Below the pieces are notes generated by a model, which saw only the letters and a program-made list of their open reading frames with translations, made no database searches and was not told the DNA's origin. The position numbers were made by a program, and so were the translations under genes. From Asticcacaulis sp. MM231 (GTDB lineage: Bacteria; Pseudomonadota; Alphaproteobacteria; Caulobacterales; Caulobacteraceae): a stretch of DNA of 64,000 nt. This document shows positions 15,680 through 63,860 of the stretch, one piece after another. Every line of letters starts with the position of its first letter. Position 1 is the stretch's first letter. The stretch covers positions 1,116,001 through 1,180,000 of the forward strand of contig NZ_OZ075108.1 in NCBI RefSeq assembly GCF_964186625.1, written 5' to 3'.

Positions 15680-15700
15680 TGGGAGCCTTATGAGTAGCAC

Positions 15701-15826
15701 CCTTCGCCCCGCTTATTGCGGGGAGAAGGTGGCCCGGAGGGCCGGATGAGGGGCAGTACGACCGTTAGAAAAAGCCCCTCACCCGCCGCTGAAGCGGCAC
15801 CCTCTCCCCGTAAACAGGGAGAGGGG
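15701..15826. repeat. pair of REP-like palindromes in opposite orientation
   Basis: The first unit (15701-15753) has the hairpin CCTTCGCCCCGC/GCGGGGAGAAGG, then a GGCCC..GGGCC hairpin, then GGATGAGGGGC. The second (15774-15826) is the same design inverted: GCCCCTCACCC, a GCCGCT..AGCGGC hairpin, then CCTCTCCCCG..CAGGGAGAGG. A 20-nt spacer separates them. The architecture matches the repeats flanking the DUF559 gene. Confidence 0.75.
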
Positions 15827-16892: not shown

Positions 16893-17495
16893 CTAACGCG
16901 CTTTACGCAGGGAAAAGCGCGTGGCGGTCAGCCTATCCGAGACGGCGCTGCTCTTGGTGTCGATAAGGTTCAGCGCGTGCATGTGGGTGCGGACGGTGGA
17001 ATCGGGCAGGGGCGATTTCGGGCCTTTGGGGTAGACGACCCAGATCGGCGCGTGCGGCAGGCGTTGTGTCACCTCGGCCAGGGCAGCGCTCAGTTCATCG
17101 GGTGCGCGGGCGATGATGACGGAAACGGCGGCTTGCAAGGGATCGGTGGTGACGGCGTCCAGCAAGGCTTCCTCGAGCGCGGCATCATCGACATGGCCCG
17201 TAACAAACGCCCTGTGATCGCTGTCGATGCCGAGCTTGGCGGCCAGGGTCGGTGGTGCGGTGGTGAGCTTTTTCAACCATTTCGACGCCTGTCCGGCGGG
17301 CAGGGCGAGGGCATACGACAAGTCTTCGTGCTCGAATAACAACGCGTCATTGACGATGCGCGGGTCTTTCAGGTCGGCTATGGGCAGGGTCTTGCGGAAG
17401 GCACCGCGGAAGATCAGGTCCCGGCTTTCGAGCAGCGCCTTGACGTAGTGGCTTTCGCGCCCGACCCGTACTTCGCTTTCGGCTTCAAGACCCAT
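16893..17495 (-). CDS. conserved hypothetical protein, DUF3052-like C-terminus
   Basis: This is a 200-residue soluble protein. The C-terminal half (IWVVYPKGP..., then TVRTHMHALNLIDTKSSAVSDRLTATRFSLRK) has the pattern of DUF3052-type proteins, where a 'WV.YPKG' strand is followed by 'GLVD.KV.A....W....F'. The N-terminal half (FRGAFRKTLPIADL) may be a related but separate domain. No catalytic residues are evident. The start at 17495 lies just outside the left repeat of the DUF559 element, 19 nt away. Confidence 0.6.
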   Translation of the reverse strand: MGLEAESEVRVGRESHYVKALLESRDLIFRGAFRKTLPIADLKDPRIVNDALLFEHEDLSYALALPAGQASKWLKKLTTAPPTLAAKLGIDSDHRAFVTGHVDDAALEEALLDAVTTDPLQAAVSVIIARAPDELSAALAEVTQRLPHAPIWVVYPKGPKSPLPDSTVRTHMHALNLIDTKSSAVSDRLTATRFSLRKAR

Positions 17496-17513
17496 GTCGG
17501 CACCTGATAAAGA

Positions 17514-17562
17514 ACCTCCCCTGGTATCAGGGGAGGGTGGCGCGCAGCGCCGGGTGGGGTTA
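17514..17562. repeat. left inverted repeat of the DUF559 unit
   Basis: The outer hairpin is CCTCCCCTG..TCAGGGGAGG and the inner one is GGCGC..GCGCC, ending in GGGTGGGGTT. This is the same design as the other REP-like units in the window. Confidence 0.8.
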
Positions 17563-17594
17563 ATTTCTGTCAGTCAATATGGTACGCCTGTCCT

Positions 17595-17960
17595 ATGGTT
17601 AGGCAACCCGGAATTCAATTTGCACGGCAATTGCGGCATGAGATGACGCTGCATGAAATCTTGTTATGGAGCCGTATCAAAAAGCGATATCCGAATGGCC
17701 CTGTCTTTCGCCGCCAGTATCCCTATGCGCCGTATGTCTTTGATTTCTACTGTGCACGCATAAAGCTGGTTATTGAGATTGATGGTATGGGCCACGATAT
17801 TTCTGATCAAGCACGCAAGGACGAGGCACGTGATCAATATCTGCGCTTGAGAGGATTTGAGGTATTGAGGATAGCAGCGGCCGAAGTTCTTGCTGATCCG
17901 GATGATGTCGCAGATGGCGTGATCAGATTAGCAACAGAACGTATGCGGCAAGCCATCTAA
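17595..17960 (+). CDS. DUF559 protein, Vsr-like PD-(D/E)XK endonuclease fold
   Basis: This 121-residue protein belongs to the DUF559 (PF04480) type, related to very-short-patch-repair nucleases. The signature runs FRRQYPYAPYVFDFYC, then LVIEIDGMGHD, then RDQYLRLRGFEVLRI. The D of FDFYC and the E and D of IEIDG are the expected metal ligands. Function in this family is unproven; DNA cleavage is inferred from the fold. Codon use is more AT-rich than in neighbours. The gene starts 32 nt after the left repeat and its TAA overlaps the right repeat. Confidence 0.88.
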   Translation: MVRQPGIQFARQLRHEMTLHEILLWSRIKKRYPNGPVFRRQYPYAPYVFDFYCARIKLVIEIDGMGHDISDQARKDEARDQYLRLRGFEVLRIAAAEVLADPDDVADGVIRLATERMRQAI

Positions 17961-18007
17961 CCTCACCCGGCGCTGCGCGCCACCCTCCCCTGAGATCAGG
18001 GGAGGTT
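17959..18007. repeat. right inverted repeat of the DUF559 unit
   Basis: This is the reverse complement of 17514-17562 with three mismatches. It ends 7 nt before the last base of engB. Confidence 0.8.
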
Positions 18008-18014
18008 CATGTCT

Positions 18015-18677
18015 TTACAAAGTGATCCCGCAGGTCTGCATGATCTCAAGGCGCAATTCCGGGATGCCGAAGCCGACCTCGGACGAGGTGGGCAGCACGA
18101 TCGGGTGGGCGGCAGGGCGCTTCTTGATGCCGGCCTGCGTGGCGGCGATCACCTTCGCCAGTTCGGCCGGCTTGATCTTGTCGGCCTTGGTCAGCACGAT
18201 CTGGTAGCTGACGGCGGCCTTGTCGAGCGCGTCCATTGGCTCGTTATCGACGTCTTTCAGGCCGTGGCGCGCATCGATCAGAAGATAGGCGCGCTTGAGG
18301 TTAGGCCGGCCGCGCAGGTAATCGCGGCCCAGATTCTGGAACTTCTTGACCGCCACCTTGGACGCGCGCGCCCAGCCATAGCCGGGCAGATCGACCATGT
18401 GCATGGCGTCGTTGAGGCGGAAAAAGTTCAGCTCGCGGGTACGGCCGGGTTCATTGGAGGCGCGCGCCAGATGCTTATGGCTCACCAGCGCGTTGATCAG
18501 CGACGACTTGCCGACATTGGAGCGGCCGGCGAAGGCCACTTCAGGCAATTCGTCGGACGGCAACTGATCGACCGAGACCGCGCCCATGACGAAGGACACC
18601 GGGCGGGCAAACAGCACCCGCGCGGTTTCGATCGCTTCGGCCTGCAGTTCGGCTTCGGTCTTTACAGAGTTGGTCAC
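18015..18677 (-). CDS. engB: ribosome-biogenesis GTPase EngB (YihA/YsxC)
   Basis: This 220-residue TRAFAC GTPase is needed for 50S subunit assembly. The G motifs are [11 protein letters not shown] (G1, about residue 50), EPGRTRE (switch I), VDLPGYGWA (G3), LTKADK (G4) and PTSSEVG (G5). The N-terminus carries [12 protein letters not shown] as in other alphaproteobacterial EngB. The start is GTG at 18675-18677, overlapping the TGA of yidC (GTGA). Together with rnpA and yidC it forms a tight translationally coupled block. Confidence 0.94.
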
Positions 18678-54957: not shown

Positions 54958-55770
54958 ATGTCGCGCGCCACCCGCCTGCTTGACCTTTTGCAACTGTTGC
55001 GACGCCATCGTTATCCGGTGGCCGGCGCCGAACTGGCGCGCGAACTCGATATTTCGCTGCGGACGCTTTACCGCGATATCGGCGCGCTTCAGGCGCAGGG
55101 CGCGCATATCGAAGGCGAGCCAGGCGTGGGTTATGTGCTGCGGCCGGGCTATATGCTGCCGCCTTTGATGCTGAGCCAGGAAGAACTGGAAGCGCTGGTG
55201 CTGGGCGTGCGCTGGGTGGCTGACCGGGGCGATGCCCGTCTGGGTGAGGCGGCGCAGAACGCCCTGACCAAGATCACCGCCGTGCTGCCAAAGGATCTGG
55301 CCGATGAAATCGAGACCTCCGGGCTTCTGGTGGTGCCAAGCTGGTCATCGCCGCAAAGCCGGATCGATCTCGGTGATATCCGCGCCTCCATTCGTGGCGA
55401 ATGCCGCGTCGAGGTGCGCTATACCGACCTGAAGGAGGTCACCACCGACCGCGTGGTCTGGCCGGTGGCGCTGGGCTTCTTCGAACACATTCGCATCGTT
55501 GTGGTGTGGTGCGAGATGCGGCAGGCCTTCCGCCACTTGCGCGCCGACCGTATCGTGTCGTGGTCACCGCTAGAAAACCGCTACCCCAAGCGCCGCGCCG
55601 TCTTGCTCAAGGCGTGGAAGGCGGAACGCAACGAGGAACACGCCAAGTATGAGGCGGGCCTGCCGGCGAAGAAGCAGCCGGTTGTGACTTCTGCAATAAT
55701 TCCCCTCTCCCCGCAAGAAGCGGGGAGAGGGGGCTTGCTATTCCTTCACAATCGGCAGCCAGACCGCTGA
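54958..55770 (+). CDS. HTH/WYL-domain transcriptional regulator (YafY-like)
   Basis: This 270-residue protein has an N-terminal winged HTH (RLLDLLQLLRRHRYPVAGAEL, then LDISLRTLYRDIGALQAQGA) and a WYL domain near residues 130-200. WYL sensors bind small ligands or nucleic acid. After about residue 240 the frame runs through the REP-like palindrome at 55702-55732, and the tail (IIPLSPQEAGRGGLLFLHN) is encoded by the repeat. The natural end was probably slightly upstream. The final bases overlap the convergent CocE gene. Confidence 0.83.
   Translation: MSRATRLLDLLQLLRRHRYPVAGAELARELDISLRTLYRDIGALQAQGAHIEGEPGVGYVLRPGYMLPPLMLSQEELEALVLGVRWVADRGDARLGEAAQNALTKITAVLPKDLADEIETSGLLVVPSWSSPQSRIDLGDIRASIRGECRVEVRYTDLKEVTTDRVVWPVALGFFEHIRIVVVWCEMRQAFRHLRADRIVSWSPLENRYPKRRAVLLKAWKAERNEEHAKYEAGLPAKKQPVVTSAIIPLSPQEAGRGGLLFLHNRQPDR
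55702..55732. repeat. REP-like hairpin at the end of the WYL gene
   Basis: A perfect 13-bp stem, CCCCTCTCCCCGC with GCGGGGAGAGGGG, has an AAGAA loop. It has the same arm sequence as the REP-like pair at 15701-15826. Confidence 0.75.
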
Positions 55771-63646: not shown

Positions 63647-63783
63647 CGTTACAGTATGCACCGGGAAAAGGACGGGGGAATAGATTTGGGCTTCGCACCT
63701 TATCTTATTCTTCCGTGTCTTACATGGCGGGGGAGAAGCAAAAATCCGCACCACCGCATCTCAGCCTTCGGCTTCGTGCGGTC

Positions 63784-63806
63784 CCCCTCCCGACAAGTCG
63801 GGGAGG
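63784..63806. repeat. REP-like hairpin
   Basis: CCCTCCCGAC and GTCGGGGAGG pair as an imperfect hairpin with a short loop. It lies between two minus-strand genes. The sequence resembles the outer palindrome of the other REP-like units. Confidence 0.55.
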
Positions 63807-63860
63807 TATAAGGTAATCTCTGGTTGCGGCCATTCGATATTGCTGCTGCTTCCGGGCAAG

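Follow-up and report, generated by a model that had tools for sequence, protein, structure and literature searches.

Analysis of a 64,000-nucleotide stretch of Asticcacaulis sp. MM231 (contig NZ_OZ075108.1, positions 1,116,001 to 1,180,000; hereafter the window) showed a small DUF559 gene lying between two inverted repeat arms. The arms are 51 nt each, 94% complementary and separated by 395 nt, and the whole element is about 0.5 kb long with DUF559 as its only protein (Table 1). The gene begins with an ATG at 17595, 32 nt past the upstream arm, and the downstream arm opens with its TAA stop codon (17958-17960). Both arms folded into two hairpins (z about -4.2), and 0/200 shuffles were equally stable. 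An earlier sequence-only reading had described near-identical inverted repeats around the gene, one 32 nt upstream and one containing the stop codon, each arm a double hairpin, and the coordinates and folds agreed with all of this. The GTPase-domain gene next to the downstream arm is presumably engB, a name taken from that reading; its label "DUF3052-like" for the neighbour on the other side was not borne out by Pfam, in which no family was matched.

Table 1. Features of the DUF559 element and related repeats in the window.
Feature	Position	Strand	Basis
DUF559 / Vsr-like PD-(D/E)XK nuclease gene, 121 aa	17595..17960	+	ORF and Pfam; E21, D50, E61, D63, H67 conserved
Upstream arm: hairpin A 17515-17536, hairpin B 17539-17551, gene-facing mirror-repeat tail 17552-17559	17512..17562	+	Inverted repeat, folds, triplex scan
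Downstream arm (inverted copy): hairpin A 17984-18005, hairpin B 17969-17981; includes the gene's stop codon	17958..18008	-	Inverted repeat, folds
Gene-less doublet, left arm	15701..15752	+	Triplex scan, perfect mirror tail
Gene-less doublet, right arm; 23-nt spacer from left arm	15776..15825	-	Triplex scan, perfect mirror tail
Solo hairpin A, probable remnant	55702..55732		By eye
Probable single arm or remnant	63748..63809 (approximate ends)	-	By eye
Presumed engB, GTPase domain (Pfam)	18015-18677	-	
Neighbour on other side of DUF559 gene, 0 Pfam families	16893-17495	-	

A triplex-arm scan returned 3 arms in the window versus 0 in three block-shuffled windows. The upstream arm of the element was found with a mirror match of 0.89, and the downstream arm, which has a differing tail, fell below the threshold and was missed. 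The same repeat design had been claimed for three other places in the window. The first (15701-15825) was indeed two facing arms; 55702-55732 proved to be a single hairpin and 63784-63806 to lie in an arm-like minus-strand stretch, both assigned by eye and neither passing the scan. In a search with known RNA families, only two tRNAs in the window reached the gathering level and no family came near its gathering score at the locus, and a known RNA family was rejected as the identity of the repeats.

The window protein matched only DUF559 (PF04480, E 1.6e-27) and MTES_1575 in Pfam, in keeping with its earlier description as a Vsr-like PD-(D/E)XK enzyme. The closest solved structure was 3hrl, an endonuclease-like protein (E 3.1e-15), and the restriction endonuclease PvuRts1I was a weak match (E 0.024). 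Among 123 DUF559 rows, 7 contained a stop and 6 were short. D50 and E61 were present in all intact copies (110/110), E21 and D63 in 108/110 each and H67 in 107/110, with a median column identity of 55%. These residues are presumed to be the active site, their conservation pointing to a catalytic role, and together with the sequence family they place DUF559 in the PD-(D/E)XK family. The closest kin of the protein were found in Asticcacaulis sp. YBE204 (61% identity) and A. machinosus (58%), where the arms belonged, by eye, to the same subfamily as the window arms; three other loci compared alongside had arm scores of 37, 15 and 15.

Vsr acts in mismatch repair, cutting at T:G mismatches, and is encoded beside a cytosine methylase. 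Four window neighbours were checked by Pfam and showed no methylase (one had no family); distant methylase cognates are possible for a Vsr-like protein, as noted in work on Caulobacter (PMC12907096). YcjD has been related to Vsr by profile (PMC1189080). The Caulobacter DUF559 protein VsrA was reported to be required for the SOS response when a cytosine methylase is missing, and it was predicted to be a mismatch-repair enzyme, with possible break-making suggested by the authors (PMC12907096). This role in the SOS response makes a DNA activity plausible for the DUF559 family. The findings on VsrA also favour an explanation in which DUF559 serves the host as a repair (VSP-type) nuclease and is a favoured passenger of repeats that act as terminators or insertion hot spots and owe their movement to some other factor; the predicted mismatch-repair role counts against the explanation preferred below.

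The intrastrand-triplex nature of the arms had been missed in the earlier reading. The purine strand of hairpin A (e.g. GGGGAGG) reappears as its mirror (GGAGGGG or GGTGGGG) in the tail past hairpin B. In the genus arms (181 purine-hairpin arms of 226), a mirror tail matching at 8/9 positions or better was present in 64% towards the gene, 4% away from it and 10% after shuffling; in the class-survey arms (49 of 60) the corresponding values were 55% inward, 10% outward and 6% shuffled. The linkers seen by eye were GTGG, GGGGACC and others. Only hairpin A was recovered by RNAalifold from alignment A1, in which the classes do not have hairpin B in the same register. Deinococcus arms had, by eye, tails pointing outward. 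The published PIT/TMECO repeats, in which the purine strand of a hairpin is repeated as an antiparallel third strand, have the same hairpin and mirror design and occur in E. coli and more than 260 bacteria (PMC4666352, Holder et al. 2015). The upstream window arm has this arrangement and the downstream arm fell below the threshold; judged by their sequence, the arms are of the PIT/TMECO design. The E. coli motif forms a triplex in vitro; a stable triplex was not seen in vivo in the experiments described, a point against the explanation preferred below, and the authors report no association of the E. coli repeats with mobile elements or flanking-gene function (PMC4666352). Repeats of the same core in Enterobacter 638 were presumed to be terminators (PMC2869309). 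In E. coli K-12, the stop codon of ycjD, which is annotated as DUF559, lies inside a TMECO-like hairpin, and a TMECO-type sequence is present further downstream.

Flanking was scored by the strongest inverted match of the 300 bp before a gene to the 300 bp after it, and the thresholds of 17 and 25 were picked after the first control distribution was known. A PF04480 search gave 75 matches in 17/21 genomes, and another 12 genomes of the genus added 48 rows. The genus set consisted of 25 Asticcacaulis-type genomes with 113 DUF559 rows, 4 of them untestable, which left 109 loci; DUF559 was present in 23/25 genomes, with up to 10 copies in one genome. Inverted arms flanked 91/109 of these loci at a score of at least 17 and 74/109 at 25 or more, while the values were 9/405 and 0/405 for non-DUF559 ORFs from the same stretches, and 8/959 and 1/959 for random positions, which occasionally strike doublets. 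The host genome of the window, G000 (4.65 Mb, three contigs), contained seven DUF559 loci, the other six encoding proteins 38-48% identical to the window protein. By eye all of them (7/7) were enclosed by facing arms whose sequence differed from locus to locus, and one locus (L004/L095) had one arm shortened and without hairpin A. By score, 4/7 passed 17 and the other 3/7 reached 16, just below, and these three were counted against the preferred explanation.

The pattern extended well outside the genus. Ten DUF559 loci of other families in the order gave 8/10 at 17 or more and 6/10 at 25 or more. A class-wide draw of 142 alphaproteobacterial genomes, 51 of them with a DUF559 match, returned 30 loci, one per genome, with 24/30 and 17/30 at the two thresholds (controls 2/46 and 0/46). 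In a phylum draw, further alphaproteobacteria gave 7/14 and 6/14 (controls 1/27 and 0/27), the 7/14 again weighing against the preferred explanation, and other Pseudomonadota gave 9/12 and 7/12 (controls 3/17 and 0/17). Twelve plasmid records were hand-picked among 39 matches (25 listed); 8/12 scored at least 25, among them two of Deinococcus and one of Pseudanabaena (a cyanobacterium), and those below 25 were from Azospirillum brasilense, Shinella, Photobacterium and Picosynechococcus. The failing DUF559 loci included some with arms of two subfamilies, some one-sided, some armless and some with broken genes. The question raised in the earlier reading, whether DUF559 genes of relatives are flanked by such palindromes, can be answered with yes for the genus, the order, the class and beyond, and both the flanking pattern and the range over which it occurs are well established.

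Chance or convergent terminator hairpins round a small gene might also have produced arms of this kind, GC-rich hairpins being common at gene ends and the downstream arm being able to terminate transcription. The ORF controls of the genus and class surveys, the folding values and block-shuffled windows given above, and the loss of the arms together with the gene at the empty sites described below all oppose this; the possibility was rejected on the surveys and shuffle controls and is extremely unlikely.

Some DUF559 loci showed further features. The units on plasmids of Sphingomonas parapaucimobilis (L364) and Deinococcus psychrotolerans (L365) lie between co-directed metabolic genes (transhydrogenase subunits and paaD/paaZ), likely inside operons. 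At L100:2971-4050 (G000 C1:803024 region), a single frame of 359 codons combines DUF559 (E 1.1e-31) with a cytidine-deaminase zinc region, which we take to be RibD-like, and a triplex arm is apparently translated as the linker. Open frames of 317-386 codons at the DUF559 matches L013, L016, L020, L021, L141, L142, L143 and L145, from other genomes of the genus, may be the same DUF559-deaminase fusion; the Pfam check covered L100 alone.

Comparison with relatives revealed sites without the element. Across the aligned blocks of the first 33 kb, identity between G022 and the window is 93.4-96.8%. At the engB site, where G000 carries the whole element, G022 has 34 other bases with no gene and no repeat, and the site was also free of both in G026, G032 and G024. 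These 34 bases were replaced, not duplicated, which is unfavourable to the preferred explanation. Among the seven G000 sites, G022 was clean at three, namely engB, L099 (beside a greA-type gene) and a ribD-like site; it had a solo hairpin A at purA, L096 and L097, accompanied at L097 by another insert, and a gene-less doublet at L095. The ribD-like site carried DUF559 in G024, G026 and G029 and none in G022 and G032, through gain or loss. The L054 site was empty in G007, G008 and G023. Other sites showed partial structures: a single arm at the L086 site in G008, gene-less doublets at the L083 site in G002 and the L087 site in G008, a solo hairpin at the L092 site in G021, and a different insert beside an A hairpin at the L047 site in G009, G004 and G030. 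In other clades the gene next to engB was often different, and there was, by eye, a gene-less doublet in G012 and G028, a shortened doublet in G025 and a solo hairpin in G001, G006, G011 and G023. G022 also had a gene-less doublet near window position 2938 that is absent from the window.

Two target duplications were convincing. At L099, TAGCGTATCGCGGT(G/A)AT (about 18 nt) is present on both sides of the G000 element and in single copy in G022; at L092 (G012) the duplication matches at 23/24 nt and comes from the end of the neighbouring gene. Their scores of 14 and 21 compare with a maximum of 10 in the mismatched-flank control. Direct repeats at L169 and L040 exceeded the controls too but lie in palindromic sequence. 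With a convincing duplication in only 2/80 elements with clear ends, the count tells against the preferred explanation.

The empty sites strongly support that gene and arms move as one unit. The earlier reading had singled out the site by engB for comparison, and the gene and repeats were both missing there in the four relatives named above. It had also held that relatives keeping the repeats while the gene comes and goes would speak against its proposal; this was not so at engB, but a solo hairpin, a single arm or a gene-less doublet is retained by relatives at several of the other sites. Such remnants, found at many sites, also fit a two-step, homing-like history, in which the repeats first spread without the gene and by other means, and the nuclease gene later entered palindromes already in place, by cutting them and serving as the template for their repair. 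The solo hairpins of G022 (purA, L096, L097) and G021, the single arm in G008, and the doublets at L083 in G002, at L087 in G008 and behind engB in G012 and G028 are what such a history would leave, and Vsr-like folds are found among homing enzymes. Homing elements usually sit in an intron or intein, at a conserved target of the cognate allele; DUF559 elements occupy seven different sites in one genome, and no intron or intein was noticed. The two-step history is fairly unlikely, given that neither repeat nor gene is present at the three clean G022 sites or at engB in three more relatives, that solo hairpins are equally explicable by deletion between palindromic A copies, and that the arms are cognate to the protein subfamily and not random genomic repeats.

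Some sites had a more complex structure. At L083/L057/L162/L184 (G009, G004, G027, G030), each flank at L083 and in G027 is a facing doublet (doublet-gene-doublet), and G002 (L342) has a single doublet and no gene at this place. Near window position 15684-15826, the window and G022 both carry repeats, but these belong to different sequence classes, which suggests that arms have been replaced at a site used more than once. In E. coli, ycjD covered at least 80% of the query in 3362/5426 genomes; the three ycjD-less strains opened have an efflux operon at the site and were hence uninformative as within-species empty sites. In the fabI-sapF interval (L307-L311; L310 has ycjD), a TetR regulator and RND efflux genes beside fabI replace ycjD in these three strains, and a 2026 paper on EefABC mentions ycjD (PMC12817139).

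Within genomes, the own downstream arm was the strictly best match of the upstream arm in 54/70 cases, with 13.5 expected (first 74 loci), and both arms of an element were of the same hand-made class in 44/47, with 15.3 expected. Of 101 arms on either side, 34 (upstream) and 41 (downstream) fell outside these hand-written classes; omission of the 21 elements in which this applied to both arms gave a set of 80. In this set, the nearest non-orthologous protein shared the arm class in 54/80, against a mean of 23.4 and a maximum of 38 over 2000 shuffles, a test that left out pairs with similar flanks and whose count rearranged orthologues could inflate somewhat. These comparisons showed, at the level of sequence classes, that arms and nuclease are paired by subfamily.

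A simple repeat pattern gave 21 to 275 matches per genome in all 25 genus genomes, its read-backwards control (6 to 180) being inflated by the mirror symmetry of the motif. In G021, 22/24 close pairs faced each other, with gaps of 18-19 nt (6), 43-48 nt (14), 51 and 64 nt; this count covered 94 of 100 listed matches (187 in total), two nested duplicates and four matches without a hairpin having been dropped. The gap clusters are fixed-size units. The survey of 142 alphaproteobacterial genomes used a different pattern with a near-zero control. At least 5 repeat matches were found in 26/37 genomes with strong DUF559 (E < 1e-20) versus 3/105 without (Fisher p 1.2e-16, for 140 genera and with no phylogenetic correction), the 14 genomes with only weak matches being counted as lacking DUF559. 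The three repeat-rich genomes without DUF559 were G043 (77% complete), G120 (apparently low-complexity sequence) and G074, a real exception. Three observations were counted against the preferred explanation: repeats occur without DUF559 in G005 (145 matches), G011 (63) and G074 (44), G022 has one DUF559 and 81 pattern matches, and 10/37 strong-DUF559 genomes have fewer than 3 matches of the class-wide pattern. The expectation of solo palindromes genome-wide in gene-carrying strains held with qualifications: gene-less copies are dispersed and track DUF559, and G005, G011 and G074 have repeats without it. Most repeat matches are not at DUF559 genes, which likewise qualifies the earlier proposal.

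Ordinary REPs moved by RAYT/IS200-type HUH transposases, with DUF559 incidental, were suggested by the similar palindromic facing doublets and by the analogy drawn in the earlier reading. The Y1 transposase family of RAYT and IS200 (PF01797) was present in only 4/25 genus genomes and absent from 21/25 including G000, whereas all 25 had tens to hundreds of pattern matches; this distribution largely refutes RAYT-driven REPs, which are very unlikely. Spread mainly by plasmids or phages was also rejected, since the window protein (E at or below 1e-5) was found in 39/72,556 plasmid and 2/50,697 phage records. The repeats without DUF559 in some genomes are in line with a host repair nuclease carried as a passenger, as introduced above. 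That explanation is nevertheless unlikely: other genes are rarely so flanked (0/405 at 25 or more), arm class tracks protein class at non-orthologous sites, repeats and DUF559 co-occur strongly at genome level, and a genome may hold up to 10 DUF559 copies.

The preferred explanation, which is probably correct, is a mobile element of about 0.5 kb in which a Vsr-like DUF559 nuclease lies between two inverted intrastrand-triplex arms and which works like REPIN/RAYT with an unrelated nuclease. We infer that the nuclease itself moves the element. The arms vary in sequence and keep their fold and mirror tail, which indicates recognition by shape; the nuclease would recognise its own arms as a hairpin with a third strand on single-stranded DNA, for example behind the replication fork. 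It would nick at the arms and at the target, and copying or repair would insert the arm-bounded stretch, sometimes leaving a target duplication of 18-24 nt. The copy step could be nick-primed replication, break repair or excision. Gene-less doublets may be mobilised in trans, as REPINs are by RAYTs, and deletion between the two palindromic A hairpins would leave solo hairpins. The earlier suggestion of a self-copying element behind the dispersed palindromes is supported, with copying by the nuclease being likely.

The DUF559 element resembles REPIN/RAYT systems in having one small gene between inverted palindromic arms, dispersed facing gene-less doublets, rarity on plasmids and phages here, and arms paired with the enzyme by subfamily, as shown for DUF559 by this analysis. 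RAYTs and their REPs are also paired by subfamily. It differs in its enzyme, a PD-(D/E)XK nuclease and not an HUH Y1 transposase (PF01797), in reaching up to 10 copies per genome, and in its arms, which are a hairpin with a mirror tail whereas REPs are hairpins tagged GTAG/CGTC (PMC3733652). With PIT/TMECO repeats it shares the hairpin with a polypurine strand and mirror third strand, sometimes in inverted pairs and in many bacteria, but a specific nuclease gene lies between DUF559 arms, and for the E. coli motif no link to mobile elements was reported (PMC4666352). Vsr and YcjD belong to the same domain family, which includes the solved member 3hrl, and E. coli ycjD ends in a TMECO-like hairpin; Vsr, however, serves mismatch repair beside a methylase, and the DUF559 gene sits inside a repeat-bounded mobile unit. 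Terminal inverted repeats, short gene-less derivatives, empty sites and occasional target duplication are shared with IS elements and MITEs. Unlike these, DUF559 is the only gene inside, there is no DDE transposase gene between the arms, the arms vary in sequence and keep their fold, and the target duplication is long (18-24 nt) and was seen in two cases only, not as a regular short duplication. Among the matches listed in a literature search, with most subscription journals and preprints outside its scope, none connected DUF559 with REP or triplex repeats. We call the DUF559 element a new kind of mobile element because it falls into none of the classes tested; on a stricter view it could be counted as one more form of REPIN-like system.

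A broader claim, towards which we lean slightly, is that DUF559 nucleases define a cross-phylum kind of mobile element, in which a stand-alone Vsr-like nuclease reads triplex ends by shape and copies what lies between them. Its non-autonomous offspring and scars would then be the triplex repeats scattered through alphaproteobacteria, E. coli (TMECO), Deinococcus and cyanobacteria. Two orphans, the DUF559 nuclease and the triplex repeats, would explain each other, and the origin of a widespread and so far unexplained class of bacterial repeat DNA could be accounted for. If the nuclease moves triplex-ended DNA, one more enzyme class would join the known DNA mobilisers. If true, there would also be a naturally occurring protein reader of three-stranded DNA and a reason for the genome instability at triplex repeats, and some Vsr-like "repair" genes would have to be seen as selfish or domesticated elements.
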